DNA of 63,020 bases from Candidatus Latescibacterota bacterium (GTDB lineage Bacteria; Latescibacterota; UBA2968), in NCBI GenBank assembly GCA_022823725.1, contig JAJEHL010000051.1:1-63020 (forward strand), given 5' to 3'. Below are positions 24,544 through 50,475 of the stretch, in pieces. Within the stretch, counting starts at the first letter, position 1, and each line of letters starts with the position of its first letter. A program made the translations under genes and the position numbers. The notes below the pieces were generated by a model that was given only the letters and a program-made list of their open reading frames with translations, had not been told where the DNA came from and did not search any database.

Positions 24544-24607
24544 AATTTCCACTTTAACACACCGGCTTTTTCGCATATACTACCAGAACTCAGGGTTAAT
24601 TAAGAAC

Positions 24608-24651
24608 CCAATTGACATTTGGGCATATCTTCGCCTAATTAAAGCGATTTG
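24608..24651 (+). promoter_or_regulatory. Promoter of the SDR operon, copy 1 of a repeated promoter
   Basis: TTGACA (24612-24617), an 18-base spacer and TAATTA (24636-24641). A 43-base block around it matches 31008-31050 at 39 positions, including CATATCTTCGCCTAATT and AAGCGATTTG. It lies 62 bp before the SDR ATG. Confidence 0.6.
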
Positions 24652-26587: not shown

Positions 26588-28437
26588 TGAGAATTCTCGA
26601 CATCCGACAGAGAAAGCCCGAGGTATGGCGAGGTCCCGCCTGGTCTCCAGAACAGGAACGGGCAAACCGCGAATGGGAAACCTTCTGGCGTTTTTTTAAG
26701 TACCTGTATCCCCACAAGACGAAAGTCATCCTCGGGATGGTATTAATCATGGTAGGCGTTCCGCTCCGTGAGATAGGCGTCTTTGTGGGGCGATATCTGG
26801 TCGATGAAGTCATCCTGAACACCGACCTGCCAATAGACCGCCGCTTGCAGCTTTTCTTTTTTGTCTTTGGTATCCAATTCCTGCTCTGGGTCATCTCGAA
26901 TATCTCTCAGATAATACGGCGTATCCTCGGGTGGTATATCGACATGAAAGTCACCATCCACCTGCGCACGATCTTCTACGACCATCTCCACAAACTTTCC
27001 CTCGGCTTTCTTCAGAGCCGGCCCATCGGCGAACACATGTATCGCAGCACCGCTGATGTCGGAGGTGGCCTGATCACTATGATCACCGACGATGTTCCCA
27101 ATGCGATCACCATAGCCTACCGGATTATCTGGACGGGCATCATCCTCAGTCTGGTGGATCCCTATCTCACATTGCTGATTTTTCTCTACTCCTTTCCCTA
27201 CACAGCCCTATCCCACTACTTCTACACGCGCCTTCAGAGGGTCCGATGGGACATGAGAATGCAGGCACAGTACCTGAGGTCGATCTTGAGAGACGGTATA
27301 GCCGCGACCAAAACCGTCAAAGGTTTCGGCCGTATGCGCTGGTCTGCCCGCCGATATGCATCAACTTTTATCGAGAGCCGCAGATACTGGATCAAGTACC
27401 GCGTTCTACATATCTTTACGCACCAGGGCGTTCTGTGGTTTCTCTCTGAGGGCGTTGAAAAATTACTGTGGCTCTACGTGGGTTACCACACCATGACCGG
27501 GGAGTTGAGCATCGGAGAATTCAGTGTTGTATTTTTTCTCGCCCGGCAATTTGAAGGCCCGATGGAGAGAATGATCAAGCTAATCCAGAGCATTCGCCTT
27601 CAACTCGTCCAGGCCGAACGCGTCCTGCAAACCCTCGACGTTCAACCCCAGATAAGCGATGCGCCCGATGCGAGCACCATGCCAGCCCTCAGCGGCACAA
27701 TCGAATTCAGAAATGTGGGATTCGAATACGTATCGGGACAGCCCGTGCTGGAAAATATCAACATCACAATCCGTCCCGGAGAGCGCGTCGCATTCGTGGG
27801 ACCGAGCGGATCGGGCAAGACCTCGATGCTATACCTCATCTTGAGGCTTTACGATCCCACCACCGGATCAATTCTCGTAGATGGCCGCGACTTGAAAAGC
27901 GTCCGCCTCTTGAGCTACCGCAATCAACTCGGCGTTGTGCTTCAAGACACCTTCTTATTTTCTGGAACTGTTCGCGAAAATATCCGCTATGGCAATCTAA
28001 AGGCTTCGGACGCAGACGTGGAGGAAGCAGCGCGCATGGCCGCGCTTTACGACGCTGTCACCGCTCATCCGGAGGGATTTGAAAGAGATATTGGAGAGGG
28101 TACGAGATTATCCGGCGGACAAAAACAAAGAATAGGTATTGCCCGCGCCCTGATCAGAGATCCCGCGGTTTTCATTCTGGATGAGGCGACTTCGAACCTG
28201 GATTCTCGATCGGAAGAACACGTCATGGACACGCTCTGGAACGTATCGGAGGGGCGAACCACCGTGATGGTTTCTCACAGGCTCATGACCGTTCAAAAAG
28301 CAGACCGAATATATGTTTTGGATCAGGGTAGAATTGTCGAAAATGGTACACACGACGACTTGATGGCAGCAAACGGTCTCTACCGCCAAATATGGGATGA
28401 GCAGATGCAGGTGGGCACAGATAATGCAGCCGATTGA
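26587..28437 (+). CDS. ABC exporter half-transporter
   Basis: A 616-residue membrane-ATPase fusion with six predicted helices between about 45 and 320. The ATPase domain has Walker A G-P-S-G-S-G-K-T-S, signature L-S-G-G-Q-K-Q-R, Walker B F-I-L-D-E-A-T-S and H-loop V-S-H-R; all catalytic residues are present. R-P-I-G-E-H-M-Y-R-S-T-A-D in the coupling region is echoed in the transporter at 31108 (G-I-G-E-H-M-Y-R-A-S-A-D), so the two are paralogues and may dimerise. It starts inside the previous stop (TAATG). The substrate is unknown. Confidence 0.88.
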   Translation: MRILDIRQRKPEVWRGPAWSPEQERANREWETFWRFFKYLYPHKTKVILGMVLIMVGVPLREIGVFVGRYLVDEVILNTDLPIDRRLQLFFFVFGIQFLLWVISNISQIIRRILGWYIDMKVTIHLRTIFYDHLHKLSLGFLQSRPIGEHMYRSTADVGGGLITMITDDVPNAITIAYRIIWTGIILSLVDPYLTLLIFLYSFPYTALSHYFYTRLQRVRWDMRMQAQYLRSILRDGIAATKTVKGFGRMRWSARRYASTFIESRRYWIKYRVLHIFTHQGVLWFLSEGVEKLLWLYVGYHTMTGELSIGEFSVVFFLARQFEGPMERMIKLIQSIRLQLVQAERVLQTLDVQPQISDAPDASTMPALSGTIEFRNVGFEYVSGQPVLENINITIRPGERVAFVGPSGSGKTSMLYLILRLYDPTTGSILVDGRDLKSVRLLSYRNQLGVVLQDTFLFSGTVRENIRYGNLKASDADVEEAARMAALYDAVTAHPEGFERDIGEGTRLSGGQKQRIGIARALIRDPAVFILDEATSNLDSRSEEHVMDTLWNVSEGRTTVMVSHRLMTVQKADRIYVLDQGRIVENGTHDDLMAANGLYRQIWDEQMQVGTDNAAD

Positions 28438-30892: not shown

Positions 30893-31006
30893 ATAGCAGG
30901 CTCCTGCAGAAGTAATGAATGTGCCACAACATACAAATTACTGTATAAATTAAACCGATTTTCTACCTGACACAATTGTTTTCGGTTCTCCAACAAATCC
31001 AAAAAT

Positions 31007-31050
31007 CCAATTGACATTCGAACATATCTTCGCCTAATTTAAGCGATTTG
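31007..31050 (+). promoter_or_regulatory. Promoter of the ABC exporter operon, copy 2 of a repeated promoter
   Basis: TTGACA (31011-31016), an 18-base spacer and TAATTT (31035-31040), set in a block nearly identical to that at 24608-24651 (39 of 43 positions). It lies 58 bp upstream of the transporter ATG. Confidence 0.6.
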
Positions 31051-31107: not shown

Positions 31108-32904
31108 ATGTTCAACTATTTTCCTCCTCCCCGCAAGGGAGCGAAACAATCGCTCATAAGAGTCTTTCTGCGTTTTCTCAGACTAATGATTCCGGTCTGG
31201 GATAAGGCACTGCTCGTCGTAATGGGCACGATTGTCGTCAGCACATTTCGGGTTGTGAATCCGTGGCTGAGCAAGTTCCTCATCGATGATGCATTTCCAA
31301 ATCAGGATTGGAACCTGTTCTACAGTATCTTTGTCGCCTATGTCGTACTCGTTCTGATTCAGAGATTGGTCGGTACCATGACGACCATTCTCAATCACTA
31401 CGTAGATCTACGCGTGAGCTTAGCCCTCAAAACCCACTTCTTCACCCATCTCCAGCGCCTCTCCATGACTTTCTACGAGAGTCGTGGTATTGGCGAGCAC
31501 ATGTATCGGGCGAGCGCAGATACGGGAGCCGTAATGCGCATGATCACGGATATTTTGCCAGCGACATTGCGGGCGGTCTATGAGTTCATACTCATACTCA
31601 TCTTCACCACCTGGTTGGACTGGCGAGTCTCACTGGTCATTCTGATTTACTCAATTCCTTATGGTATAGTCGCCCAGAAGATCGCAACCATACAGCGCAG
31701 ATTCGATCGCCGTGTAAGAGAGAGATGGCAGGCGCGCGACTCCGGGCTTCAAGAAGGCGTTGCCGGGGCAGCCGTCGTACAGACATTTGGACGGCGCCGG
31801 CACGAAGTAAAGCGATACGTCAATCTCACCATCGAAGGGTATCGCGCTGCGATGCGACTGTTTTATATGCGTATCATCGAAGGAGAACTCGCGGGCAATA
31901 GCGGCCTGCTTCCCTATTTAAAAAATCGATTGATAAGACTATACTTCCTCAGAGAAGTTATTATAGGCAACCTCTCCTATGGGTCTGTATTCCCCCTTTT
32001 TTCCTATACGAACCGCCTGTCCAACCCCATTCAAGTCTTAATTCGGTATTTTCAGCAAGTTCGCATTGCAATGGTTCCCGCCGAGCGCATTCTCGAAACA
32101 CTGGATCAGGTTCCCGCTGTTACAGACCGTCGCAATGCACCGGCAATGCCACCTATCAGGGGCGATGTCGTCTTTGACAATGTCTCCTTTTCTTACGAGG
32201 ATGGCACGCCTGTCCTGCGCAACCTGAGCTTCACTGTTCAGGCAGGACAAAAAATCGCCCTGGTGGGACACAGTGGATCGGGTAAAACCACGGTCGCAAA
32301 CCTGCTTCTCAGGCTGTACGACCCGGATTCGGGCAGGGTAATAGTAGATGGCCAGGACCTCAGAGAAGTGAAATCGAGTACCTACCAGGACCAGGTTGGT
32401 CTGGTTTTACAGGAAACGCATTTATTCAACGGAACAATCAAAGAAAATATCCTGTTCGGTCAGCCCCATGCATCTGACGATGAGGTGGTCAGAGCCGCCC
32501 AACTGGCGGACATAGACGCATTTGCCTCATCCCAACGCAACGGATATGACACCGATCTTCGCGAAGGCACGCGAATCTCTGGGGGTCAGAAACAGCGGAT
32601 CGGGATTGCCCGCGCCATGGTTCGCGATCCCAAAATTCTCATTCTGGACGAGCCCACATCATCCCTGGACAGTGCCACAGAACAGCGTTTTCTGCAAAGT
32701 CTGAATCGCGTAGCTGAAGGGCGCACCACCTTCATAGTCTCTCACAGACTCACAACAGTGGCAAATGCCGATCAGATCATCGTTCTCGGCGACGGTCAGA
32801 TCCTCGAACAAGGTACACACACAGAGCTAATTCGCAATGGTGGAGAGTACGCAGAGATGTACAGGCGATACCTCGGCCTGGATGATAACAGGCAAGTTGG
32901 GTAA
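31108..32904 (+). CDS. ABC exporter half-transporter
   Basis: A 598-residue exporter subunit: six helices between about 30 and 310, then an ATPase with Walker A G-H-S-G-S-G-K-T-T, signature I-S-G-G-Q-K-Q-R, Walker B L-I-L-D-E-P-T-S and V-S-H-R. The site is catalytically complete. A paralogue lies at 26587-28437, and the two operons share a promoter block, so a heterodimer is plausible. The following gene, 30 bp downstream, resembles a membrane-fusion protein, which would extend export through the envelope. Confidence 0.88.
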   Translation: MFNYFPPPRKGAKQSLIRVFLRFLRLMIPVWDKALLVVMGTIVVSTFRVVNPWLSKFLIDDAFPNQDWNLFYSIFVAYVVLVLIQRLVGTMTTILNHYVDLRVSLALKTHFFTHLQRLSMTFYESRGIGEHMYRASADTGAVMRMITDILPATLRAVYEFILILIFTTWLDWRVSLVILIYSIPYGIVAQKIATIQRRFDRRVRERWQARDSGLQEGVAGAAVVQTFGRRRHEVKRYVNLTIEGYRAAMRLFYMRIIEGELAGNSGLLPYLKNRLIRLYFLREVIIGNLSYGSVFPLFSYTNRLSNPIQVLIRYFQQVRIAMVPAERILETLDQVPAVTDRRNAPAMPPIRGDVVFDNVSFSYEDGTPVLRNLSFTVQAGQKIALVGHSGSGKTTVANLLLRLYDPDSGRVIVDGQDLREVKSSTYQDQVGLVLQETHLFNGTIKENILFGQPHASDDEVVRAAQLADIDAFASSQRNGYDTDLREGTRISGGQKQRIGIARAMVRDPKILILDEPTSSLDSATEQRFLQSLNRVAEGRTTFIVSHRLTTVANADQIIVLGDGQILEQGTHTELIRNGGEYAEMYRRYLGLDDNRQVG

Positions 32905-37383: not shown

Positions 37384-39453
37384 TTACATCTGCAGGTCAT
37401 CCAGAAACTCCGACGCAGGTGTAACCCCCGTAATCAATAAGTGGTCCCGAGCGCGTGTGCATGCGACATAAAGCAAATGTCTCTCTGTATCGTACACCTC
37501 TTCGAGATCCGCGCTATCCGCGACTGTCTCAATCCGATCCTGTAGCGGAATAACCTCATCGTCACACGCCATAACTGCGACAGCGCGAAACTCCAATCCC
37601 TTCGCCAGATGCATCGTACTTATCGATACGCAGTCCTTACCCTTCCCATCGCTTTCGTCCAAAACCTGAAAAGAGAAACCAGCATCGCCCACCGCCTCCC
37701 GCGCCCGGTTTAGTTCCCCTGCCGAACGCACAAATATTCCCATCTCACGATCATCCACGCCTTTGTCTCGGCACTCCTGCAACCACGTTCCAACAGCCTT
37801 ACTTTCTTCTTCCTCAGTCTCAAAGAATTCTATTGCCGGAGGCTCACCATTAAATGCCGAGACCGTACCCCTGCGATCCTCAACATTGCCATCCACATCG
37901 GCGACTTCGGGACCCAGCAAACGATCTGCTTGTACCCGGATTTGATGAGACGTTCGGTAGTTGATCTTGAGCGTCCGAGACCTTCCGCGAATATCGACGC
38001 CCAGCGACTTCCATGAAAACGGCGTTTGGAAAATCCTCTGCCCCAAATCACCCGCAAAAAAGAGACTATTGGGCCGTTGGTCGCCCAATGCAGCGAGAAA
38101 ACGCAGTTGGGCAACGCTAATGTCTTGCGCCTCATCTACAATAGCGAAGTCAAACGGTGGATGCCGACGATCTTTGAGCTTCTCAGCAAGCAAGCCGAAC
38201 ATACCAGCCCGGGTCACCAGTCCCTGGTCTTGAAGTTGGTCCTTCACCTTCTCAAAAATAGACCACAGCACCGAACGCTGCGCCACCGGCAGGCGCGTCT
38301 TGCGTCCAAGCCGCCTGATATCGCGATAGGCTTCCCAGCTATTCAACTGCCAAGCATCAACGACACTCTCCCATTCGCTCAACAAAAAACGAAGGCTGAA
38401 TTGATGCTCTTCTACCTCACCTGATGCTTTTGCCAGAAACTCCTGAACAATCTCCTGGGTTGCGATCTTTGGCGCACCAAACTGCGCGCGATAAAGCCGC
38501 TCGCCAACCGCATCAATAGCACTGATTTCCACACGTTCTGCAAGCCGGGGTTCGTTTTGAATTAACCGCCTGAGTTTGATACGTAGAGCATTAGCCAGTG
38601 CATCGGAGAATGTGGTGAGCAGCACCATCGCATCCGGGTTATTGCGCACGAGAAACGCGGCTCGATGAATAGCCACAACGGTCTTTCCCGTACCTGCCGT
38701 CCCGGACACGCGAAATGGGCCATTGTAGTCTCTCTCTACAACTTCTCGCTGCGCCGGATGAAGAAAGACTGCCCACTTTTCCCAAGGATAGTCGAGCGCG
38801 CGCTCCAGTTCTTCCACATTTGTCATCAACCGGAAACGGCGCTGTGCGTCGGGATGATCAAAAGGATCAGTAGTGGTAACTGGTTGCGCTATCTGTGGCG
38901 TTCCACCAACGGCTAACTCAAGTAACGCCTCCCCTGCCTCGCCCGGCAGATGCCCAGCCAATTCGAGCAAGCCATCTTCATCGGCGTTACGCACATCATC
39001 CAGCCAATCAGGCGGCACACCATAACTCAGCAGATCGCTCTCTGAGACATCAGGAAGCAAAGGCTGTTTGTACTGTACTTTTTCCTCAGCTATCACATAT
39101 TGGGGCACGGCGATTTCTTGAACAATCTCGCGCACCTCAACCAATTGTGCTGCACCGGTCCTGGGGTGGGTTTCCAGCTTGCGCCGCTCAGCCCATTGAT
39201 AGGCATTGTCGTGGTGATCTACATAGCACAACAACAGACTATTCCGGGTTCGATGCACAATTATTCGGACATCACGGCTAACGCGAACAGACCAGAAATT
39301 TGGATCTTTAACTCTATCCAACTTGTGGAATTGCACTCCCGGCTGAGCTGGATTTAATTGCAAATCAAAGGCCGTGGTTTTCACAGCCTTCTGCTCATTA
39401 CCGGTCAGCCTGGCAAGGCTATCGGTAAAAGTATGGGCGATGCGGAAATTCAT
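37384..39453 (-). CDS. RelE-like domain fused to UvrD/Rep-type helicase
   Basis: A 689-residue protein. Residues 1-90 resemble RelE/ParE-type toxins (F-T-D-S-L-A-R-L, then W-S-V-R-V-S-R-D-V-R-I-I-V-H, then L-L-C-Y-V-D-H-H-D-N-A-Y-Q-W-A). After a linker, residues 240-685 are a superfamily 1A helicase: Walker A G-T-A-G-T-G-K-T-V, V-D-E-A-Q-D-I, L-Q-R-I-F motif region, and the C-terminal S-T-M-H-L-A-K-G-L-E-F and V-A-C-T-R-A-R-D. UvrD-like helicases fused to RelE-like domains are repeatedly seen in defence regions; the RelE part may be an RNase or only a fold. It is the last gene of the island. The ribosome site is weak. Confidence 0.8.
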   Translation of the reverse strand: MNFRIAHTFTDSLARLTGNEQKAVKTTAFDLQLNPAQPGVQFHKLDRVKDPNFWSVRVSRDVRIIVHRTRNSLLLCYVDHHDNAYQWAERRKLETHPRTGAAQLVEVREIVQEIAVPQYVIAEEKVQYKQPLLPDVSESDLLSYGVPPDWLDDVRNADEDGLLELAGHLPGEAGEALLELAVGGTPQIAQPVTTTDPFDHPDAQRRFRLMTNVEELERALDYPWEKWAVFLHPAQREVVERDYNGPFRVSGTAGTGKTVVAIHRAAFLVRNNPDAMVLLTTFSDALANALRIKLRRLIQNEPRLAERVEISAIDAVGERLYRAQFGAPKIATQEIVQEFLAKASGEVEEHQFSLRFLLSEWESVVDAWQLNSWEAYRDIRRLGRKTRLPVAQRSVLWSIFEKVKDQLQDQGLVTRAGMFGLLAEKLKDRRHPPFDFAIVDEAQDISVAQLRFLAALGDQRPNSLFFAGDLGQRIFQTPFSWKSLGVDIRGRSRTLKINYRTSHQIRVQADRLLGPEVADVDGNVEDRRGTVSAFNGEPPAIEFFETEEEESKAVGTWLQECRDKGVDDREMGIFVRSAGELNRAREAVGDAGFSFQVLDESDGKGKDCVSISTMHLAKGLEFRAVAVMACDDEVIPLQDRIETVADSADLEEVYDTERHLLYVACTRARDHLLITGVTPASEFLDDLQM

Positions 39454-39556: not shown

Positions 39557-40258
39557 TCAATGGGACATCGCAACTGGTCGCGTAGCTAATTTTTCGACAT
39601 TGGAGTCGAAGTTTATCATTTGTTGACGTTCATAAGATTTCCACGATTTATAACAACGCAACGAAGTTTTAGAGATAATAGGTGCGTTCTCTGTAGCCTT
39701 GAGTTTCTCGTGCAAGTCCGACATTGTTTGATGGATTTCCTTGCTATCATAGCCACCACGAGTTGGTATCATCCAAGAGTCCAAGAACCCTCGCTCAATT
39801 AGATCCGGCCCCCTGTAATTGTTATCTGACCAGTACTTTTTTTCCCTCTTATTGTTTGGTAATATGCGTCCATTCTGAAAATCTGAGGACCATTTAAGAA
39901 AATCATCACACATAGATTGAAACAGCTTTTCTGAGACAAGAAAAAGATCCAGATCGGATTCTGGGCCAAACGGTTTTCCAAAATTTTCATTTTTTAATGA
40001 CGAACCCAGTCGTGCACTTCCTGTTAAACTAATCTCTTTAGCCTCCACATCAAGTTTTTCGCTAAGCCACGAACGCAGCGACTCATAAACTGCCGGACAC
40101 TTTTGAAATGCAAATGGTATTCCTTCTGAAAGCCATTGGCGTGCTATCGCAAATCGGTCCACATCCCAACCTTCGCACAAAACCCTTAGTATATGCTCTG
40201 CGGTCGGATAACGATCAGTCATTGCTGTTAAAGTTGAAGAGGATTCAAAAGGTTTCAC
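39557..40258 (-). CDS. Nucleotidyltransferase-fold protein
   Basis: A 233-residue protein with a Pol-beta-type nucleotidyltransferase signature: L-T-G-S-A-R-L-G-S-S (about 78-87), then E-S-D-L-D-L-F-L-V (about 100-108) giving the D-x-D metal pair. The C-terminal part is helical and charged. Possible roles are a CD-NTase-like signal synthase, an antitoxin-like nucleotidyltransferase, or tRNA/protein NMP transfer; nothing decides among them. The GTG start at 40258 has GGAGG 6 bases upstream and overlaps the GT51-like gene by 14 bp, so the two are translationally coupled. Confidence 0.65.
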   Translation of the reverse strand: MKPFESSSTLTAMTDRYPTAEHILRVLCEGWDVDRFAIARQWLSEGIPFAFQKCPAVYESLRSWLSEKLDVEAKEISLTGSARLGSSLKNENFGKPFGPESDLDLFLVSEKLFQSMCDDFLKWSSDFQNGRILPNNKREKKYWSDNNYRGPDLIERGFLDSWMIPTRGGYDSKEIHQTMSDLHEKLKATENAPIISKTSLRCYKSWKSYERQQMINFDSNVEKLATRPVAMSH

Positions 40259-40850
40259 TGCACACCTCCGTAATCGAGCTGGGCTGTCGTTCTACTCGGT
40301 TATATCTCTCTATTAGATAGACGCATCTTTGTTCTATTTTGCGGAGTCGTTTCAGCGAAACGATTTTTGGCTGTGGATACTTCAGGCAAGCTACCAGTTG
40401 AGCAGCACTGTACAAATCGTGTGCGGCTGGATCAATTCTCAGCCGTTCGCATGCTTGAAGAAAACTATTCATTCTCCATCCGTAATACGCTACCCACAAA
40501 TAAAGTCTTGGCAGATCTTCTCGTGGAATGTATTGAGTTAGTCGAACAGCCAGGGCTATTTCTCGGGTCTTTCTCAGGATGGTTTTATCGTATTTTCTCG
40601 TCAGAGTACGGACAAGTTGCATCGCAATAGTCGAGCCACCTTCTCTGCGGCCGCAGACAAAAGTTCTCCAGGTAGCACGACAAAGAGCTAACGGATCGAA
40701 GCCTGGATGGTAATGAAAACGGTGATCTTCACCAAGAATGAGTAACGAGCACATTTGCACGTTTGGATGAACTTCGTACTGACTGTCGTATTCGCGCTTG
40801 ACCTCATCTATTGTCCTCTTTAGTTCTCTCCAATCTTCATTCCTACCCAT
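40245..40850 (-). CDS. Soluble GT51 peptidoglycan transglycosylase-like protein
   Basis: A 201-residue protein matching the glycosyltransferase 51 domain of penicillin-binding proteins and MtgA. Motif 1 is E-D-H-R-F-H-Y-H-P-G-F-D (catalytic Glu, about 56-67), motif 2 G-G-S-T-I-A-M-Q-L (about 91-99), motif 3 R-K-T-R-E-I-A-L-A (second Glu). Motif 4 (usually I-L-E-x-Y-L-N) is degenerate: D-L-P-R-L-Y-L-W-V-A-Y-Y-G. It lacks the N-terminal membrane anchor that GT51 enzymes normally need to reach lipid II, and has no transpeptidase domain. It lies 17 bp after the AAA ATPase and overlaps the nucleotidyltransferase. AAAGGAG precedes the ATG. A role in lipid II chemistry during defence is inference. 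Confidence 0.7.
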   Translation of the reverse strand: MGRNEDWRELKRTIDEVKREYDSQYEVHPNVQMCSLLILGEDHRFHYHPGFDPLALCRATWRTFVCGRREGGSTIAMQLVRTLTRKYDKTILRKTREIALAVRLTQYIPREDLPRLYLWVAYYGWRMNSFLQACERLRIDPAAHDLYSAAQLVACLKYPQPKIVSLKRLRKIEQRCVYLIERYNRVERQPSSITEVCSETF

Positions 40851-40867
40851 TAACCATACTCCTTTTG

Positions 40868-41857
40868 TTATTCGCTTTTATCGTCCAGCCTCTCGGCGAT
40901 GCTTTTGCGTTCGGTGAGCATTGCCTTGATGTCCGCTATACGAACCCAATCTCGATCATGGATCAGCGCATCTTTCAAGGCTTCGTTCGCAGCGCGGGTA
41001 ACTTCAGCGTAGCTCAATCCCATTGCCAGATCGGCCAAATTCTCCCACTTGATCCTCTTGAAGACATTTCCAGCGAGGCGAGTTTTCAAGAGCTTCGCAA
41101 TCTGTGATTCATCGGGCAGGTCGTAGTGCAGAATATAGTCGAATCGGCGGAAGAGTGCATGGTCAAATATTCCGGGATGATTCGTTGCCGCCACGACGAG
41201 GCTATGAGAGCGATCCTGCTCAATCATCTGCAAAAAGCTGTTCAACACGCGACGTATTTCACCCACATCATTGGTGAGTCCGCGCTGCGAACCAATAGCG
41301 TCGAACTCGTCAAAAAAATAAATACCCCGGGTTCGGCTGGTGGCATCGAATATCTGCCGCAACTTGGCCGCAGTTTCCCCCATGTACTTGGTGATAAGGC
41401 CATCGAGACGGACTTGAAAAAGAGGAAGACCGAGTTCCCCAGCCAGGACGGACGCGGTTAGCGTCTTGCCCGTACCAGGGGGGCCTGTTAGCAACAACTT
41501 ACGCCTGGGTGAAAGGCCATATTCCACAATCCGCCCAGCATGACGTTGCTCACGAATGACGCGCTTTATCTGCTGGGCGAGAACATCACTCAGAATCATA
41601 TCACCCAATCGAGCCTTCGGGTAAGAGGCTTCCAGTAGGTTCGCCAACTCACCAGAAGGACGGCCAATCGGCACCAGCGAACTCACGCCTCGGCGACCTT
41701 TAGCTTCGTCAATCATGGTCCGCATTTCTTTAGCGAGTTTGCCGTGACCCAGTTTTGCTTCGTGGGCGGCAACCTGCATAGCGACCGAGAAAAAGCGGTC
41801 GTCGTCGCCTTCCAGGTGCGACTTCAGCAATGCTTTGAGTTGCTCTGCGTTAGCCAT
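40868..41857 (-). CDS. AAA ATPase (IetA-like)
   Basis: A 329-residue ATPase. An N-terminal helical region (L-K-A-L-L-K-S-H-L-E-G-D-D-D-R-F) is followed by a classical AAA core: Walker A G-P-P-G-T-G-K-T-L, pore-like K-Y-M-G-E-T, Walker B F-F-D-E-F-D-A-I-G, sensor A-T-N-H-P, arginine finger F-R-R-F-D-Y. This N-terminal region plus AAA core is the type found next to subtilisin-like proteases in the IetAS anti-phage pair, but no protease is present here; a GT51-like and a nucleotidyltransferase gene follow instead. ATG 41857 is chosen for GGGAGA just upstream; the longer frame (41881) overlaps the repeated mod end. Confidence 0.78.
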   Translation of the reverse strand: MANAEQLKALLKSHLEGDDDRFFSVAMQVAAHEAKLGHGKLAKEMRTMIDEAKGRRGVSSLVPIGRPSGELANLLEASYPKARLGDMILSDVLAQQIKRVIREQRHAGRIVEYGLSPRRKLLLTGPPGTGKTLTASVLAGELGLPLFQVRLDGLITKYMGETAAKLRQIFDATSRTRGIYFFDEFDAIGSQRGLTNDVGEIRRVLNSFLQMIEQDRSHSLVVAATNHPGIFDHALFRRFDYILHYDLPDESQIAKLLKTRLAGNVFKRIKWENLADLAMGLSYAEVTRAANEALKDALIHDRDWVRIADIKAMLTERKSIAERLDDKSE

Positions 41858-41887: not shown

Positions 41888-41937
41888 TCACACCCGAAAC
41901 ACCTTCATCACCTCATCCCCCAGATGATTGACCACTT
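41888..41937 (-). repeat. Duplicated 3' end of mod (direct repeat copy B)
   Basis: Thirty bases (41888-41917) are identical to the last thirty of mod (44293-44322), and about 15 of the next 20 also match. In the mod frame the copy encodes K-V-V-N-H-L-G-D-E-V-M-K-V-F-R-V and a stop; mod itself ends K-V-I-N-H-L-G-D-E-V-M-K-V-F-R-V. The stop of ariB lies within the copy in another frame. The two copies bracket ariA-ariB, 2405 bp apart. Confidence 0.85.
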
Positions 41938-42809
41938 TTAGGCGGTGCGGGCAAAGATCTGAATATGTCATACCCTATATTCCGTTTAGACCAGAATCTC
42001 GCATCTGCATACAATTGCGTACGGTAGAAATCTTCGCTGTCGTACGCAAGACGGAGTGCAGTGCCCAGTGCTTGAAGGCTTGCAGCTTGATGTGACTTGC
42101 TGCCTAAAACTTTTCTCAAGGCAATGCCAAAAATCGCAATGAAGTCGTGCCCACAGCAAATTTGATAGGGATCGACATTCATGTCTTCTACAAGTTCCAA
42201 CAATCTATCCCTAATTTCTCTCGCGTCTAAGCCTTGGTTGCCGGTCAACGCAAGAACATTATTTAGCATTCTGTCTCGATCTATTTCCAACGAATCGCGG
42301 TCAATAAAGCGATCAAACCGAAGTCCTTCAAAGCGTAGGCGAAGATCATCTGTCACAGACAAGTAGCGGAGATGCCCTATAATTAAGGCCCTCTGCATCA
42401 GAGCATCGCGTATTCTACTCTCTCGATTTGGAAACTCACGAATTTTTCTTGCAGAACCCAACTCATACAAAACCGCATCAAATGCTTTGGTTCTAAGAAT
42501 CATCATTTCGACATCATGGTCATCTGTGACAATCACATTCCGTGAATTTGGTAGCGAACCATCAATATGTCCAAAGTCAGCATCTACGATTCCCATGAAA
42601 CCCTGTATGCCATTATACGCCTCAAGAATCTCAACAGCGTCAAGGAGGTTTTCCTTACCCCAAGTAGCTATAATAGACATATCGGGATTCTTAACAAATC
42701 GGCGAAAAAATTTTACGTCATTATCTCCTTCGAGAAGGAGAATAGGCCCCTCGTCTCGGTCGCGTGTAAGAAGAATTTCATTAGCTATATCGTGGCTTGT
42801 TTGCTCCAT
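41913..42809 (-). CDS. ariB: DUF4435 TOPRIM-like nuclease, AriB of a PARIS-like system
   Basis: A 298-residue protein of the DUF4435 type with a TOPRIM-like core: catalytic Glu in I-L-L-L-E-G-D-N-D-V-K-F-F (about 21-33), D-x-D in G-I-V-D-A-D-F-G-H (about 77-85), and T-D-D-H-D-V-E-M-M-I-L, a hallmark of DUF4435. In PARIS, AriB is released by its ATPase partner on sensing anti-restriction proteins and cleaves tRNA; that function is family knowledge, not shown here. The ATG at 42809 is one base after the ariA stop (TAATATG). Its last ten codons lie inside the repeated mod end, so its C-terminus was created by the insertion junction. Confidence 0.72.
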   Translation of the reverse strand: MEQTSHDIANEILLTRDRDEGPILLLEGDNDVKFFRRFVKNPDMSIIATWGKENLLDAVEILEAYNGIQGFMGIVDADFGHIDGSLPNSRNVIVTDDHDVEMMILRTKAFDAVLYELGSARKIREFPNRESRIRDALMQRALIIGHLRYLSVTDDLRLRFEGLRFDRFIDRDSLEIDRDRMLNNVLALTGNQGLDAREIRDRLLELVEDMNVDPYQICCGHDFIAIFGIALRKVLGSKSHQAASLQALGTALRLAYDSEDFYRTQLYADARFWSKRNIGYDIFRSLPAPPKSGQSSGG

Positions 42810-42810
42810 A

Positions 42811-44175
42811 TTATTTGCTTTTACCTCCACCTGCCAGTTCAACCATGAGATCTCGTCGATTGTGAATAATAGATGGAGAATGGGTAGCCACAAGAAAATC
42901 AATATCTGCCAACTGTGCTATTTTAGCAATATCCTCGAGAAATTTTCGCTGCCATGTGACATGAAGAGATAGCTCAGGTTCATCGATAAAAATCATGGAT
43001 CCTGGCTTTGCCTTAAACAAAAGCTCGTATGTCAGAACAATCTCATGTTGCTCTCCAGAGGACAATGCCTTTGGTGGTACAATAGACCCATCGTGATCCG
43101 ATTCAAAAATGAATCCCTTATTTTTGTCTACTGCAAACTTCTTATATGAGAAGCGCGAGTTGACGATATCTTTGAACAATTCTACGCGGCGGAGAAGTGG
43201 ATCAAAAACTTGTAGTTTCTTTTTTACGTCATTGAGGTAGGCCCATAAAACCTTTCGTTCATGCTCTTTCAAACTTTCAGAGGAGAGAGGTAATGGGGGT
43301 TTGGCAACAAGAAGACTGGCCTTCATTAATCGATCTCTATATTTTGACTGAGCAGTATATTCTTTTCTGATGTGATTTTCTGTCGCTATTTTCGGCAATT
43401 CTGAGTCCAACAAAAGTCGTTGGGGGAAAGAGCTATCTAAAGATGCGCCAAGCTCACCGGATTTCCTTTGGTAGCTCTCTATTCTGGAGACCATATCCTC
43501 CGAGTATTGCTCTACCGTCATCCGCTGCACAGGGACTTCTCCTTCTTTATATCGAAACGTACGTTCTTCGCGTGCGTCTTCATGCCCTGTGAATAGTCTC
43601 TGAGTTTCAACAACTACAATATTGATTTGTTTTAACAGGCTTTCTATTTGCTCTGGAACCGAGATGATAGATTCACGGATATCAGGGGGTAGAAAATGCT
43701 CGTGATGGAAAGAGAAATCATTGAAAGATAGTAATTCACCCGTTATAACATCGCGCCACTCAGAAAGGCCAACACGTTCTATACCTTCCATATCGTCAAT
43801 CTGGCGTTCTAAGAGACTGGAGGGCAATCTTCCAGGTCTCTTTTGTCCCCTTAGCGACCAAACCGTATGCTCAATCCGTTCTTTCCCAAAACGGTAGATC
43901 AATTCCAGCTTCGCAAAATCCTTTGCTCCTTTTTCCTTAGTAGGAACAACTGTAAGGCTACCTTTAGGCTTGAAACGCACTACAATGCGGTCAAAGGGAG
44001 TATCAAGCAATGAGTGAAACCGTCCTTCAAAAAGGTCAGAGATAAGACGGAGAACCGTTGTCTTACCGACACCATTCGGCCCATGGATGATGGTAATACG
44101 GTCATCCGTCTTCAGGGGTATCCTGTGATCAAAATACCCGAATAAGGATCGAATCTCTATTTCTTTTATTTTCAT
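42811..44175 (-). CDS. ariA: OLD-like AAA ATPase, AriA of a PARIS-like system
   Basis: A 454-residue ABC/SMC-type ATPase: Walker A H-G-P-N-G-V-G-K-T-T (about 31-40), signature-like A-L-S-S-G-E-Q-H, Walker B M-I-F-I-D-E-P-E-L-S-L-H, and the A-T-H-S-P loop. V-V-V-E-T-Q-R-L in the middle is characteristic of AAA_15/AAA_21 ATPases paired with DUF4435. AriA forms the sensing scaffold in PARIS. The start at 44175 is chosen for GGAG 7 bases upstream. TTGACA (minus strand, 44232-44227) lies 50 bp before it but lacks a good -10. Together with ariB it forms a unit bracketed by two copies of the mod 3' end. Confidence 0.75.
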   Translation of the reverse strand: MKIKEIEIRSLFGYFDHRIPLKTDDRITIIHGPNGVGKTTVLRLISDLFEGRFHSLLDTPFDRIVVRFKPKGSLTVVPTKEKGAKDFAKLELIYRFGKERIEHTVWSLRGQKRPGRLPSSLLERQIDDMEGIERVGLSEWRDVITGELLSFNDFSFHHEHFLPPDIRESIISVPEQIESLLKQINIVVVETQRLFTGHEDAREERTFRYKEGEVPVQRMTVEQYSEDMVSRIESYQRKSGELGASLDSSFPQRLLLDSELPKIATENHIRKEYTAQSKYRDRLMKASLLVAKPPLPLSSESLKEHERKVLWAYLNDVKKKLQVFDPLLRRVELFKDIVNSRFSYKKFAVDKNKGFIFESDHDGSIVPPKALSSGEQHEIVLTYELLFKAKPGSMIFIDEPELSLHVTWQRKFLEDIAKIAQLADIDFLVATHSPSIIHNRRDLMVELAGGGKSK

Positions 44176-44292
44176 GTCTATCTCCAAGACTTTAATGATC
44201 AAGAGATTTGGTAAACTTGCAAAAGGTGTCAACAAGAATAGCCTATTTCGCTTGTTTTCGCAACGCATGCACCTTTTTTTCCGCAAAATTTC

Positions 44293-44342
44293 TCACACCC
44301 GAAACACCTTCATCACCTCATCGCCAAGATGATTTATCACCT
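44293..44342 (-). repeat. 3' end of mod (direct repeat copy A)
   Basis: This is the intact end of mod. The outer 30 bases are identical to 41888-41917. Copy B lies beyond ariB, so the pair brackets the ariAB unit. Confidence 0.85.
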
Positions 44343-47109
44343 TCACTGCAATACGGCCGGATTTTGGTTTGTCGAAAGGCCGAGATGTATCGCTTTTGAG
44401 CGTTGCCCAAGCCTCCTGATTGATTTCGGATTTGAGAGTGGTCTTGAGAGATTTGTACGGATCATTTGCACCGAGAAAATAGGCGTGACGGGCAAAGAAA
44501 CTCTCCTCGTTGTAATCGGTATCGACGAACCAGCAAGCAATATCACCGATATCGTCGCTACGGATCTCGCCAGTGTTGGGATGGAACACATCAACACCAT
44601 TGATCTTAACCTTGATTTGATCGTCATCCACATCAAGAATATCAATATCGGGTTCGCCAAAGATTACGAAAAGATTGCCTTTGCCAGTATTCTTCAAGTC
44701 ATCGGCCATGTGGAGATCGGCATTCATCCGCGCTTTGAGTACTGGAATGCGACCGAGCTTGTTAAACTCTGAGGCGTGGGCTTCGTAGTTAAAGGCACAG
44801 GCGATCAGAACATCAAAGTCGGCATCCGCGGCCTCGCGTGCGGCTTGCACGAGATCGGGACGTGCAACCGTGCCAAATTCCGGACCAACAAAAATGCCAG
44901 CGCGCTTTTGTGCTCCGGAATCCTCATCCCCCTCAAAGTAAGCTCCTTCAGCACAAACGAGATCACCGGGCCAGGGTCTGATCCCAGAGAACGAAATCCG
45001 ATCCTCTTTCTGCGCCTGCTGAACGCCAGAGGTCTTGAGGTGTTCCAAAATCATGGCAGCAAAGTCCTGATTGGAACTGCTATCGAACTTTTCCCCATAT
45101 CCGAGCTTGCTTTCGGCGACATTGTCGATGAGTTCATCGTTCTCATCAACAGCCAGCAAGCGATGTGGTGATAGGCTATCTACCGTAAACGGCCCCGCAA
45201 CGCGCACTTTATTTCGATCTTCGTAAGGCTTGTCGTAGAGATATTCATAGTCAGCCTTCGCCGCGATAGATGTGTCAATCTCCTTTTGCCGCGCGATCCG
45301 TTGCTCCCACCAGTCAGCGTGTAGCTTCTTGACCTTATCGGTCCAATCCTCGTCGGCCTCGCGCGGAATCTCCCACTCATCCCAGGCTGTGCCAAGCACG
45401 CTGTTCAATTTTTCACGCAACGGTTCCAACTTCTCTTGAAAGTTTTCCCAGATCACATCAATCTCAGCATTGTTAGCAATAGCCCTGAGCGTAATGTGCG
45501 GCACGCGCTCGTACACAAATCCTTGGCGAATGTCGCCATAGGTAGGCACTTCCGAGGGTGCCTTGCGCTCAATATCCGCTTCTTTCTTCTGACCCTGACG
45601 ACTGTCGGAGAGCAGATAGTAGGGATAGCGCGCCCCCATGATACGAGCACGAGCCAGTGCGAGAGCAACTCGGGAAGTGTCGGTGGTAATCCAGCGACGG
45701 CCCCATTGCTCGGCGACGTACGCAGTCGTACCGGAGCCGCACGTGGGATCAAGAACAAGGTCGCCGGGGTCGGTAGCCATAAGAATGCAGCGCTTAATCA
45801 CCTCAATAGATGTTTCTATTATATATGTTTTGTTCCTTGCGCCGATTGTATCAGACCAAGTAGAGGTCAGTTTTGCGTAATTTGCTCCTTCTTCATAAAC
45901 CACTTTTCGCAAATACTTACCTTCAACTTCGATATGATTTGCACGAATTAATCGTTGCATATTGGATAAGGAAGTCGGATAACATTGCCCAACTGGAGGT
46001 AGCCAATTTGAGCCTCTAAACTGAATCGGGAAAACGGCTTTAGCATCATAAGATGCAGGCCAAAGAGAGACCAACCTAAAGCGTCTCCCTTTATCTGGAA
46101 TAGCGAAACCGGAGTCAATTTCTCTTTTTGAAATCTTGTGTCGGTCCAACATCTCACCTTCATAATTGTTCCAGTGAAAATCACCGCTGTAGTCTTTGTA
46201 TTCAAAAAGTTGACGATACTTGACCAAGGAAGCATCTCTCGCATGCCAAATGATAAAGTCATACATTTCTTCAATATACTTAGCTCCAAGCGGCATCGTT
46301 TTCTTTCTAAACCTAATTGTTGATATATGATTCTTTTCCCCAAATACTTCATCCATCAGCATCCGCACCCGATGCACATTCTCATCTCCAATCTGCACGA
46401 AAATCGAACCGCTCTCCGTTAGCAAATCCCGCGCTACCGTCAGCCGATCCCGCAGATACGTCAGATACGAATGAATCCCATCCCGCCATGTATCCCGAAA
46501 CGCCTTCACTTGCTCAGGCTCGCGAGTGATGTGATCGGCCTTTCCGTCCCGCACGTTACGACTGGTGGTTGACCACTGGAAATTGGAATTGAACCTAATC
46601 CCATAAGGCGGATCAATGTAGATACACTGCACCTTGCCGCGCAGTCCTTCGCGCTCGGCAAGCGATGCCATCACCTGCAAGCTATCGCCGAGGACCATGC
46701 GGTTCGACCAATTGGCGTCGTGCTGATAGAACTCAGTCTTAGCGTCCTCAGAGGGCAGACCATTGAAATCGGCGAAAAGATCAGTCTGGAAGCCTGACTC
46801 ACTCGCAGCGTCTTCCTCGCTCTGGCTTATCAAATCATCGATCAGCACTTTGGGGTGAACCTTCTCTTGAATGTACAGAGGCGGCGCCTGTACCACCAAA
46901 TCTGACCAATCTTGCTCATCCTTGCCACGCCAGACGAGTTGCGGGTCAAGGTCTCGGTTGCGGCGTTTGTACGCAACCTGGATGGGACTTCGCTCATCGT
47001 CCGCCATCACTGCTTGATACTCGGCTGTGGGAATATTTTTGCGCGATGCGTCCTTGTGTCTAATAGTGTCGATAGTTTTGGGGGATCTGGCGCGCGTCCT
47101 TCGAGCCAT
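44293..47109 (-). CDS. mod: Type III restriction-modification DNA methyltransferase Mod
   Basis: A 938-residue N6-adenine/N4-cytosine methyltransferase. Motif IV is C-I-Y-I-D-P-P-Y-G (about 159-167), and the AdoMet motif I follows later in V-L-D-P-T-C-G-S-G-T-T-A-Y (about 455-467): the order D-P-P-Y before F-x-G-x-G-like makes it beta class, as in type III Mod. It is longer than typical Mod (about 650), with about 350 extra C-terminal residues containing the target-recognition and unknown regions. GGAGG lies 11 bases before the ATG. Its partner Res is upstream, with a small membrane-peptide gene between. The last 16 codons recur at 41888-41937. Confidence 0.88.
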   Translation of the reverse strand: MARRTRARSPKTIDTIRHKDASRKNIPTAEYQAVMADDERSPIQVAYKRRNRDLDPQLVWRGKDEQDWSDLVVQAPPLYIQEKVHPKVLIDDLISQSEEDAASESGFQTDLFADFNGLPSEDAKTEFYQHDANWSNRMVLGDSLQVMASLAEREGLRGKVQCIYIDPPYGIRFNSNFQWSTTSRNVRDGKADHITREPEQVKAFRDTWRDGIHSYLTYLRDRLTVARDLLTESGSIFVQIGDENVHRVRMLMDEVFGEKNHISTIRFRKKTMPLGAKYIEEMYDFIIWHARDASLVKYRQLFEYKDYSGDFHWNNYEGEMLDRHKISKREIDSGFAIPDKGRRFRLVSLWPASYDAKAVFPIQFRGSNWLPPVGQCYPTSLSNMQRLIRANHIEVEGKYLRKVVYEEGANYAKLTSTWSDTIGARNKTYIIETSIEVIKRCILMATDPGDLVLDPTCGSGTTAYVAEQWGRRWITTDTSRVALALARARIMGARYPYYLLSDSRQGQKKEADIERKAPSEVPTYGDIRQGFVYERVPHITLRAIANNAEIDVIWENFQEKLEPLREKLNSVLGTAWDEWEIPREADEDWTDKVKKLHADWWEQRIARQKEIDTSIAAKADYEYLYDKPYEDRNKVRVAGPFTVDSLSPHRLLAVDENDELIDNVAESKLGYGEKFDSSSNQDFAAMILEHLKTSGVQQAQKEDRISFSGIRPWPGDLVCAEGAYFEGDEDSGAQKRAGIFVGPEFGTVARPDLVQAAREAADADFDVLIACAFNYEAHASEFNKLGRIPVLKARMNADLHMADDLKNTGKGNLFVIFGEPDIDILDVDDDQIKVKINGVDVFHPNTGEIRSDDIGDIACWFVDTDYNEESFFARHAYFLGANDPYKSLKTTLKSEINQEAWATLKSDTSRPFDKPKSGRIAVKVINHLGDEVMKVFRV

Positions 47110-47421: not shown

Positions 47422-50400
47422 TCAACTCATGTCCATTTCGATCATCTCGTCAAATACCGCCTCCATTTTAGCCTCAAATTCCGACTCTATCTCATACACA
47501 TCTGTGAACTCGGCAAAAGCCCAGCGACCATAGCGACCGTGATTATTTACACCGGGCACCCAGTAGGTATCCATAGTCGCCTTCTTCTCCTTCGCGTCCT
47601 CTCTGCGATAGCCCTTGATCTCGACGATAAGATGCAAGAGATCGTCTTCGCCACGACCATCATCAATCAAAACGATAAAGTCCGGGATGTAAGTCCGCAT
47701 TTCAGATCCGTAGCGGTAAGGTACCTCCAACCCGAGATTGTGGTTCTTGACATACGCTTTGACGCGAGGATGGGCTTCAGCCACCCGGCAAAATTCTGCT
47801 TCCCAATCGCTATCGAGAACAACCCAATTGATGTGGCAACGCCGGGCGTCGGTCTCCCAGCGGCTGGTCTTAGACGTGGTGAAGTTGACATGTGCGGTAG
47901 AACCGACGGGATTGTATGGATCGAGCACAGCCTTGACAGGACGATTATCGATTTCTGCCCGCGTGATAGCAGCCGTGATACGCTCACAAGCTATATCGGC
48001 CAGTGCCTGATACATGAGTTGCGCGGGATACGTGCCACCTTTGCAGATAAGACAGCTATCGAGCCATTGTTTGGTGATGCGCTTGAGCTGTCCAAAGAGA
48101 TGTAACTTCGGCTCCTCATCCGGGTCGCGCCACTTCGTATAGAGTAGCCGACGAGTGAGGTAAAAAAGAAGTGTCGAAGTTCGAAGGTCGCCTGTGTGAA
48201 TCAAATTGAGATCAACTCCCTCGCCAATAATCCCCTGATTCGTCGTATGCGACGGGCCAACCATATCCGGCGTAAGTTCCCACACCGAGTCATCGTTGAA
48301 CGCGGCAGTGAGCCTCTCTTCGGGCAATTCCACCCGGTACCCGGCTACCCGTGGAAAACGTATTTCGAGTTCATCCCTTTCGGGGCGCACAGCTCTCACC
48401 TGAACAGTTTCCCGTGGCGGTCGAGGTGACACTGTAACAGGCTTCGCCGTAAAATCAAAGGGTATTCCCAACACATCTGCGTACTCAACATCGAACAGGC
48501 CCTCTTCGTTGAGATCATAGGATTGCCGCCGCAGCGCGCGACCAACCACCTGCTCGCACAGCAACTGCGTTCCAAAAGCACGAACGCCGAGCACATGGCT
48601 GACTGTATTCGCATCCCATCCTTCGGTGAGCATCGATACCGACACCACGCAACGAATCGGCGCTCCCAACCGACCGGGTTTGCCAACGGTATTCATAACC
48701 TCGCGGAGAAGCTCCTGATCGGTAATCTTCTCCGCCTGTTGACGGTCGCCCGTGCGCTCAATTATTTCTCGACGAAAACGCTCGATCTCGTCAGCGGCTA
48801 TCTTGCGAAAGTTAGTATCCAGCGCATCGCCAGATTCCAGTTGTCGGCTATCGATCAACAAGGTGCGAGGCCGGGGGTACGGGTTGCCGTACTCGTCAAA
48901 GTTGCGAAACAGCTCAAGACGCCCGTTTTCAAGCGTTGTAGTGCCATCTTCGTTTTCCCGTTCAAAGCCGGAAATATAGTCGTAAACCAGCTTGGAAGTC
49001 GAAGTATTGTTACAAACCACAATAAAGCACGGCGGCACATCGATACCAGCCTCCTCCATAAGCGCGAAGGTCTTTTCGTAGTGCCCGTACAAAGCCTCCA
49101 GTGCTGTTTGCAACTCCACGGGCAAGTTCAAAGGATCGAGATTTCCGGACCTACCCCGTCCTCTCCTGGGCATGCGGGTGCGGATGTGTTCCCAGAGATT
49201 GCGGAACTTCGGCATATCGCCACCGGGGATATTGTCTGCCACCGGTACCCGGGGTAGTTTGACTATACCGCATTCGATGGCGTCCATCAACGAAAAATCG
49301 CACATCGTCCAGGGGAATAATGTTCCTTCGCGATAACCCGAACCTCGCAAAAAGAAAGGCGTCGCAGAGAGATCCATCACCCGGTTAATACCGAGCTTTT
49401 TACCCACTGTTTCAATCCCGGAAATCCACAACCGCGCGGCTTCCGTATTCTTTTGGGCTTCCTGCCTATCATCGCCTGTCAGCTTGCCTTCTTCCGTCTC
49501 GCCCGGCTTCTCGCGATAGCAGTGGTGCGCTTCATCATTGAGAACCATGATATTCTTCATGCCCATGAGTTCGGGCATCACCCGTTGCAGCATTTGCCCC
49601 TCGGACTCCAGGGTCGTGAGATCATCCCCTCGTCCCTGAAGCAAAGAACGCCCACCTCTGGATAATTCCATGCGCTCGCGCAACTTAAAGGCGTGGTAGT
49701 TGGTAATGACAATTTTTGCCTTTTCCAGATCGGGGAGCATGTCGCTCGGCACCAACTCGCGACTCTGATAATAGCTATCCGGGTCATTCGGCTGCAACAC
49801 GCGCAAGCGGTCTTTAATGGTAATACCGGGCGTAACCACCAGAAAGCCGCGCGTGAATCTGGAACTCTGAGGTCGGCGAACCGCATTGATGGTCTGCCAG
49901 GCGATCAACATCGCCATAACAGTGGTCTTTCCTGCGCCTGTCGCCAACTTGAGCGCCAATCGCGACAATTCTGGATTGGCGTCTTTATTGGCATTTTCCA
50001 GATGGTCGAGGAAGTCCCTACCCACCTGCCCGATGTTCGGCGCAACCTCGGTAAGCCATATTGCGGTTTCTACGGCTTCCACCTGGCAAAAAAAGGGGCG
50101 AATACCACTAAATTGGTGATGCCGCCAATGCCGAAGCAAGCGGGCAGTCTCCGGGGTCACACGCCATTGGTTCTGATCCGGTATCTCGCGCCACCGATCA
50201 ACCTGTCTGCGAACACCGTCGATAGTCTGCATCAAATCGTATTGCTGATCGTCGGTCCCATACTCTCTTGCGGTCCTGTCGAACGCAAAAGAGGCTTGAT
50301 TCAAGGATGATCCCCTTTGCTTTTTCGACGTCGGCACCGCCGTGATGAATGAGACCTGTCTCCGGCTTTCGACGATTTTCTGGGTTGGCTGCCCAGTCTC

Positions 50401-50475
50401 ATCCAGTTCCCAATGTAGTTCTGGCCGATCATAGGGAGAATTGAGAATAGGCTTTTCGAAAAATGGATTATTCAA
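47422..50475 (-). CDS. res: Type III restriction enzyme Res (helicase-nuclease)
   Basis: A 1017-residue protein. It has a superfamily 2 helicase with Walker A L-A-T-G-A-G-K-T-T (about 176-184), D-E-A-H in V-L-N-D-E-A-H-H-C-Y (about 310-319), S-A-T-P-F-F-L-R, and a late Q-V-V-G-R-A-L-R-R. The C-terminal nuclease is of PD-(D/E)XK type: Y-I-P-D-F-I-V-L-I-D-D, then L-I-V-E-I-K-G-Y-R (about 950-980). It cleaves DNA after ATP-driven translocation or diffusion once Mod has recognised unmethylated head-to-head sites. It starts 47 bp after the AlbA_2 gene and precedes the membrane peptide and mod. Confidence 0.9.
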   Translation of the reverse strand: MNNPFFEKPILNSPYDRPELHWELDETGQPTQKIVESRRQVSFITAVPTSKKQRGSSLNQASFAFDRTAREYGTDDQQYDLMQTIDGVRRQVDRWREIPDQNQWRVTPETARLLRHWRHHQFSGIRPFFCQVEAVETAIWLTEVAPNIGQVGRDFLDHLENANKDANPELSRLALKLATGAGKTTVMAMLIAWQTINAVRRPQSSRFTRGFLVVTPGITIKDRLRVLQPNDPDSYYQSRELVPSDMLPDLEKAKIVITNYHAFKLRERMELSRGGRSLLQGRGDDLTTLESEGQMLQRVMPELMGMKNIMVLNDEAHHCYREKPGETEEGKLTGDDRQEAQKNTEAARLWISGIETVGKKLGINRVMDLSATPFFLRGSGYREGTLFPWTMCDFSLMDAIECGIVKLPRVPVADNIPGGDMPKFRNLWEHIRTRMPRRGRGRSGNLDPLNLPVELQTALEALYGHYEKTFALMEEAGIDVPPCFIVVCNNTSTSKLVYDYISGFERENEDGTTTLENGRLELFRNFDEYGNPYPRPRTLLIDSRQLESGDALDTNFRKIAADEIERFRREIIERTGDRQQAEKITDQELLREVMNTVGKPGRLGAPIRCVVSVSMLTEGWDANTVSHVLGVRAFGTQLLCEQVVGRALRRQSYDLNEEGLFDVEYADVLGIPFDFTAKPVTVSPRPPRETVQVRAVRPERDELEIRFPRVAGYRVELPEERLTAAFNDDSVWELTPDMVGPSHTTNQGIIGEGVDLNLIHTGDLRTSTLLFYLTRRLLYTKWRDPDEEPKLHLFGQLKRITKQWLDSCLICKGGTYPAQLMYQALADIACERITAAITRAEIDNRPVKAVLDPYNPVGSTAHVNFTTSKTSRWETDARRCHINWVVLDSDWEAEFCRVAEAHPRVKAYVKNHNLGLEVPYRYGSEMRTYIPDFIVLIDDGRGEDDLLHLIVEIKGYRREDAKEKKATMDTYWVPGVNNHGRYGRWAFAEFTDVYEIESEFEAKMEAVFDEMIEMDMS

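Follow-up and report, generated by a model that had tools for sequence, protein, structure and literature searches.

In a restriction operon of Candidatus Latescibacterota, the 3' end of the methyltransferase gene mod occurs a second time behind a PARIS-like gene pair, which raises the question of how the second copy came to lie there. The locus belongs to a stretch of 63,020 nucleotides (here denoted the window). A sequence-only reading had likened the arrangement to insertion of a cassette that restores the end of its target gene. In reading direction the order is res, mod, ariA, ariB, scar, IetA, a transglycosylase-domain gene, the gene at 39557..40258 and a UvrD-type helicase gene, all on the minus strand:

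47422..50475, minus strand: res, BPTD_3080-family restriction endonuclease (NCBIfam NF046055, 1378.3 bits, above the cut-off of 800)
44293..47109, minus strand: mod, type III-like methyltransferase, open frame of 938 aa (PADLOC PDLC03632, 1358.6 bits)
44293-44343, minus strand: repeat copy 1, the last 51 bp of mod (repeat comparison)
42811..44175, minus strand: ariA-like gene, ABC/OLD-type ATPase, 454 aa (AAA_21, AAA_15, PADLOC AriA, PDB)
41913..42809, minus strand: ariB-like gene, DUF4435 protein, 298 aa (DUF4435, PADLOC AriB)
41939..41957, minus strand: probable mod-derived filler, 19 nt (16/19 match to mod)
41888..41938, minus strand: repeat copy 2, the probable scar, or stranded 3' end of an older mod (51 nt, 90%)
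40868..41857, minus strand: IetA-type AAA ATPase (PADLOC IetA, 250.8 bits)
40245..40850, minus strand: transglycosylase-domain protein in the slot (PF00912, 85.5 bits)
39557..40258, minus strand: slot protein with no Pfam, PADLOC or NCBIfam match
37384..39453, minus strand: UvrD-type helicase, right-hand anchor of the slot (PF13361 and PF00580)

The IetA assignment follows the PADLOC model; against the NCBIfam equivalog IteA the protein scores 207.3 bits, below the cut-off of 510. No IetS subtilase adjoins the window IetA, and the transglycosylase-domain gene is found there instead. We noticed that the two overlapping genes at 39557-40850 occupy the position held by IetS beside IetA in another locus, L080. 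The product of 39557..40258 presumably resembles a nucleotidyltransferase, and the N-terminal stretch of the helicase (37384-39453), which has no database match, resembles in our view a RelE-type toxin.

Comparison of the window with itself detected a 51-nt direct repeat on the same strand, 41888-41938 against 44293-44343, with 90% identity and 2405 bp from start to start; the 30 first bases from 41888 are identical. Both copies encode the 16 last residues of Mod, K-V-(I/V)-N-H-L-G-D-E-V-M-K-V-F-R-V-stop, and three of the four codon differences between them are synonymous. Thus, self-comparison and translation bore out what had been read from the letters, namely 30 identical bases, a single Val/Ile exchange and a spacing of 2405 bp. 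Chance as the origin of the repeat is ruled out by its E-value of 3.8e-12, the best among the five plus-strand repeats listed. Two of the other direct repeats of the window are 24602-24651 / 31001-31050 (88% over 50 bp) and 28075-28285 / 32542-32752 (67% over 214 bp).

The distal copy ends in a stop codon (41888-41890) at a distance of 30 bp from the start of the IetA-type ATPase gene (ATG at 41857), in agreement with the claim that removal of one copy and the gene pair would place the mod stop 30 bp before the ATPase start. The copies had also been said to bracket ariA-ariB exactly, which fails at the distal side: the AriB stop (41913) is reached within the distal copy, in a frame other than that of mod. 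Next to that copy, positions 41939-41957 match mod at 16 of 19 bases at the expected place, ~203 bp before the stop, a score reached by none of 351 overlapping stretches from the same 19 kb. Because of this match, the distal remnant may comprise more than 16 codons and may once have been longer, with its middle (~135 bp) lost. The filler is kept as suggestive, since a gapped alignment of the region to mod gave no score above shuffles. Hence the proposed duplication of 16 codons holds for the 16 residues encoded by both copies, and as a full measure of the remnant it may be too short. The distal copy is slightly closer to the mod of a sister species (L040, 45/48) than to its own mod (43/48).

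PARIS is triggered by anti-restriction proteins such as Ocr, and its AriB component cleaves tRNA. In the window, the AriA protein scored 77.7 bits with AAA_21 and 71.6 bits with AAA_15 (longer ORF, from an upstream TTG start) and 87 bits with the PADLOC AriA model; AriB scored 47.9 bits with DUF4435 and 74.8 bits with PADLOC AriB. The three best PDB matches of AriA were all AriA chains, and a sequence search of the PDB gave no match for AriB. A pattern search detected GPNGVGKT, LSSGE, MIFIDE and THS in AriA and LLEGDND and DAD in AriB; we take the former to be ATPase motifs and the latter to be acidic Toprim-type motifs. The detection rule, as given in the available part of PMC9122126, is an adjacent pair of AAA_15 (32 bits) or AAA_21 (27) with DUF4435 (27). 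The window pair exceeds these thresholds, so that the presence of a PARIS-like pair between mod and the second mod end stands as first read.

A relative of ariAB was found in a genome of the same genus, away from the mod locus (L128, G038:C1:2158000-2174000). DNA similarity is 75.5%, beginning where ariA starts and continuing almost to the end of ariB. The L128 ariB frame stops one residue past the end of similarity; the window AriB has no stop there and takes its ~15 last residues and its stop from junction and scar sequence. The L128 frame has an internal TAG within the AriB match, and therefore serves as evidence for the DNA boundary and not for a working protein.

To place the locus among its relatives, we used two samples. 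The phylum search covered 64 Latescibacterota genomes including the window's own, 16 of which have mod relatives at E <= 1e-50. Fourteen Latescibacterota loci were fetched and 12 kept; L038 and L044, with more distant mods (49% and 29-43%), were omitted, and neither has a second mod end. Matches to mod without the 3' end were omitted as well (G048, G041:C152, G063 and G043:C140). The other sample came from an alignment scan with the Mod C-terminus, one genome per species, of which the best 80 loci were listed, from many phyla by their titles; two of the matched contigs carry Latescibacterota titles. L045 and L061, lying on the same contigs as L035 and L042, were dropped from these 80. The remaining 78 together with the 12 Latescibacterota loci, 6 viral contigs and the window make up 97 oriented loci.

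Among these 97 loci, drawn from the best matches listed and from the phylum and viral loci, 59 have a relative of the helicase downstream of mod. The distance between the two genes is below 300 bp in 12 of the 59, and 0.6-5.5 kb lie between them in the other 47. The interval therefore has the properties of a defence hotspot, namely the same two flanks, a variable defence content and empty sites. Among the families listed, the 78 cargo proteins include IetA (9), IetS (8), AAA_21-type ATPases (8), SIR2-like proteins (4), HerA (3), parts of ABC-3C (2) and GmrSD (1). These counts cover 78 of 93 ORFs, with 13 minus-strand and two short plus-strand ORFs omitted and the window excluded; they miss the IetA of L080, where a longer minus-strand ORF was picked, and the family figures stand for the first 25 of 250 and 53 families. 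On plasmids of Pseudomonas (P. avellanae and P. amygdali) the helicase overlaps the mod stop, and other plasmids carry genes between mod and helicase. Together these data demonstrate that the mod-helicase interval of the BPTD_3080-type operon is a defence-gene slot. We found no description of this slot in titles and abstracts of the open-access literature.

PARIS as a regular partner of the res-mod operon was ruled out: tblastn detected no relative of AriB in the other 96 loci, and weak AriA matches in three of them (L048, L071 and L079). No AriB relative was confirmed in viral contigs, and 13 AriB matches on plasmids are 24-27% identical. Because tblastn shows no AriB in the other 96 loci, PARIS is one lodger among many in this operon. 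The suggestion that PARIS is functionally apt in a restriction operon has a precedent in BREX, according to the available part of PMC11341690, and draws no support from the other 96 loci.

We then examined how often a gene end is repeated in these loci. In a control, the last 120 coding bases of each ORF were compared with up to 8 kb downstream across the 97 loci, using non-overlapping ORFs of at least 150 codons with at least 3 kb of downstream sequence. Repeats were kept when they had at least 40 bp and at least 75% identity, lay near the stop and did not extend into the gene. Of the 81 loci in which mod could be tested, 7 have its end again downstream; for other ORFs the count is 2 of 665 (Fisher p = 4e-6). 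Without the window the figures are 6/80 and 2/665 (p = 3e-5). Recurrence of the mod end is thus above that of control genes. The seven strict repeats are 83-98% identical. At the 5' end, the corresponding strict test was positive for 0 of 78 mods and for 4 of 589 other ORFs, among them the L080 helicase. None of nine plasmid loci has a scar.

Different cargo between mod-end repeats had been predicted, and it was found in several genomes. The second mod end of L032 lies directly before IetA and the cargo is an FRG-TPR gene; in L037 the cargo consists of an HTH/IrrE-like gene and a small ORF matching PADLOC PDC-S70, enclosed by a repeat that is 97.6% identical over 83 bp. Strong second ends were detected in L068 (cargo IetA, a DUF5131 gene and a relative of PDC-M41A), L080 (IetA-IetS) and L123 (an LmuA-like gene, weak MBL-fold match). 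In L050 the region is short, and the second mod end does not extend to the stop. Three further scars failed the strict control and stand outside the 7/81: the short second end of L035 (40 bp, 92.5%; 20 coding bases, the stop and 17 bases beyond) and the weak scars of L078 (43 bp at 79%) and L094 (~22 bp). Across loci the second copies differ in their left edge, which lies between ~6 and ~37 codons. In L036, where no scar was detected, mod and IetA are separated by a gene.

Longer mod remnants were also sought by gapped alignment upstream of the ten scars, with scores above the best of 60 shuffles in L032, L037, L035 and L080, and in L050 by one point. The matches in L032, L037 and L080 are mostly the scar itself and that of L035 is the intact mod end. 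The window, L068, L123, L078 and L094 did not exceed shuffles.

The gene order behind the scar is conserved. In the ten loci examined, the longest ORF starting at most 300 bp from the scar begins 6-70 bp past it. Behind the scar stands IetA in the window and in L032, and a decayed second IetA in L068. In 10 other loci IetA lies directly behind the mod 3' end, at 4-47 bp. These distances refer to a start extrapolated to 24 bp upstream of the window ATG; by the same measure this start is ~10 bp behind the window scar. An open frame of at least 935 codons is present in seven of the ten mods; the frame is shorter in L077 and L086, and the contig end truncates L066. Thus, mod directly before IetA, the arrangement expected on removal of the insert, is a real one. 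Similarly, relatives of the L080 post-scar gene, which we take to be PIN-like, lie 8-10 bp behind full-length mod in L033 and L074. A relative of the L037 post-scar gene was found in L041, 1 kb behind mod, and the post-scar gene of L035 has relatives in L037 and L097, neither directly behind mod. The post-scar ORFs of L123, L078, L094 and L050 have no match in other loci.

The junctions also carry pieces of the other anchor gene. In L123, the 16 bp directly before the scar match the start of its own helicase gene at 15 positions, and no equally good match exists elsewhere in L123 except the helicase itself. In L080, IetS is followed by ~125 bp of a helicase start, and 388 bp separate this piece from the scar. 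Helicase 5' remnants also occur without a mod scar, in L090 and, weaker, in L079 and L110, as a mirror image of the mod scars. In L040 the gap between res and the present mod contains a 5' remnant of mod, which matches the window mod at 145/160 and the L040 mod at 93/110. Within Mod itself, a comparison in 60-residue bins showed a mosaic: residues 241-420 are 16-53% identical to those of two sister species and the rest 70-100%. Junctions, remnants and mosaic fit repeated recombination at mod with joints inside the anchor genes, and do not fit one fixed insertion enzyme.

Taken together, we consider it probable that recombination within a defence-gene slot left the repeat as a scar, the stranded end of an older mod. 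The route of recombination, the donor and the order of events are what we infer. A core operon of res, mod and UvrD helicase would collect defence genes in its mod-helicase interval, and the ancestor would have had mod directly before IetA. Incoming DNA with a 3' part of mod and ariAB would have recombined through homology in the resident mod, its other end being joined without long homology within the C-terminal part of the resident gene. In the outcome, a complete mod would be followed by the new cargo, then by the old mod end, left stranded, and the old cargo; the cargo nearest mod would be the newer. The route may have been either one crossover with a circular molecule or the illegitimate insertion, aided by homology, of linear DNA. 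Several observations support this origin: the post-scar genes are normal neighbours of mod (IetA and the L080 gene); the broken helicase starts of L123 and L080, the AriB end within the scar and the varied left edges point to irregular junctions; and the mod 5' remnant of L040 and the decayed second IetA of L068 would be remnants of old alleles. That three of four codon differences in the window are synonymous fits an allele that diverged while functional, though the sites are few. The sequence-only reading had named a remnant of a second mod gene among the results that would speak against it; the evidence favours such a remnant.

Many integrative elements carry their own copy of the target gene end. 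In the same way, a mobile cassette might have entered the 3' end of mod through a site-specific enzyme supplied in trans, restoring mod with such a copy. In favour of this origin, the insert begins directly at the mod stop or beside it in three loci (the window, L032 and L037), differing cargo occupies the same place, and the repeat enclosing the L037 cargo is 97.6% identical over 83 bp. A left edge that moves between ~6 and ~37 codons leaves no constant attachment core, and the strict repeats range from 83 to 98% identity. No recombinase was detected in the 10 Pfam-scanned proteins of six scar loci, with the small ORFs of L035 and L050 outside the scan, or in the window insert, which encodes ariA and ariB only. 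Because the left edges vary and no recombinase was seen, site-specific insertion is unlikely. Neither the AriB stop within the scar nor the broken helicase starts before the scars of L123 and L080 suit a defined insertion that restores the gene end, and this explanation, to which the locus was first likened, was rejected as the main reading.

Some short repeats, such as the 40 bp at 92.5% in L035, look as if slippage or unequal exchange had simply duplicated the resident mod end, cargo having entered between the copies afterwards. The largely synonymous differences of the window scar (3/4) and the presence of a decayed second IetA as well in L068 speak against such an origin, which we regard as doubtful to the same degree as the cassette. 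An assembly that joined two strains of the species might be suspected from the 51 contigs of the window assembly; the same structure occurs in the single-contig assemblies G038 (L037) and G049 (L035) and the window copies differ by 10%, so that an artefact is highly improbable. The structure is real and recurrent, and scars of anchor genes are an unusual feature of this defence hotspot.

Homology-facilitated illegitimate recombination combines one homologous with one illegitimate joint. Such a process would yield the structure of the scar, and we invoke it here by inference. The term itself occurs in PMC5031613 and PMC9927239. If recombination has left these scars, anchor-gene fragments between cargo blocks would be direct marks of past joining and a means to order acquisitions. 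This bears on how defence islands gain genes without an integrase, and the interval from mod to UvrD helicase offers a defined slot for seeking new defence genes in several phyla. A bolder proposal, to which we give little credence, is that the res-mod-helicase operon is a travelling collector of defence genes, with strongly conserved mod 3' and helicase 5' ends as homology arms by which distant bacteria stack new defence cargo, fragments that record the order of arrival and a dedicated factor, possibly the helicase, that promotes the joining.

PARIS inside BREX and hotspots between conserved genes are already known, as described in the available parts of PMC9122126, PMC11341690, PMC12707154 and PMC12839542. 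In Salmonella D23580, PARIS (ariAB) is embedded in a BREX locus, so that there, as in the window, the pair is lodged in a defence operon based on methylation. That operon is BREX in Salmonella and a BPTD_3080-type res-mod operon here, and the available part of the source mentions no repeat of a host gene end, whereas the window has one (PMC11341690). The hotspots beside cos in phages and satellites, so far as their accessible descriptions go, likewise have two conserved genes that enclose interchangeable defence systems, PARIS included, and their authors speculate about recombination. Those hotspots lie in phages and satellites, whereas the present slot lies inside a restriction operon, in several phyla and on plasmids, and fragments of anchor genes separate some of its occupants. 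The core defence hotspots of P. aeruginosa also gain defence genes repeatedly at fixed sites; by the title of that report they are sites within that species, whereas the present slot is tied to a restriction operon (PMC10250203).

In L040, the mod 5' remnant is followed by a small gene pair between res and mod (1784-2645). Genes in the res-mod gap also occur in L031 and on the plasmids L132, L133, L137 and L138. The pair in L040 presumably resembles a toxin-antitoxin system. At L043 (11500-13100), the locus has collapsed to a C-terminal remnant of mod and the 3' part of the helicase gene, together with the start of a gene seen behind mod in L036.
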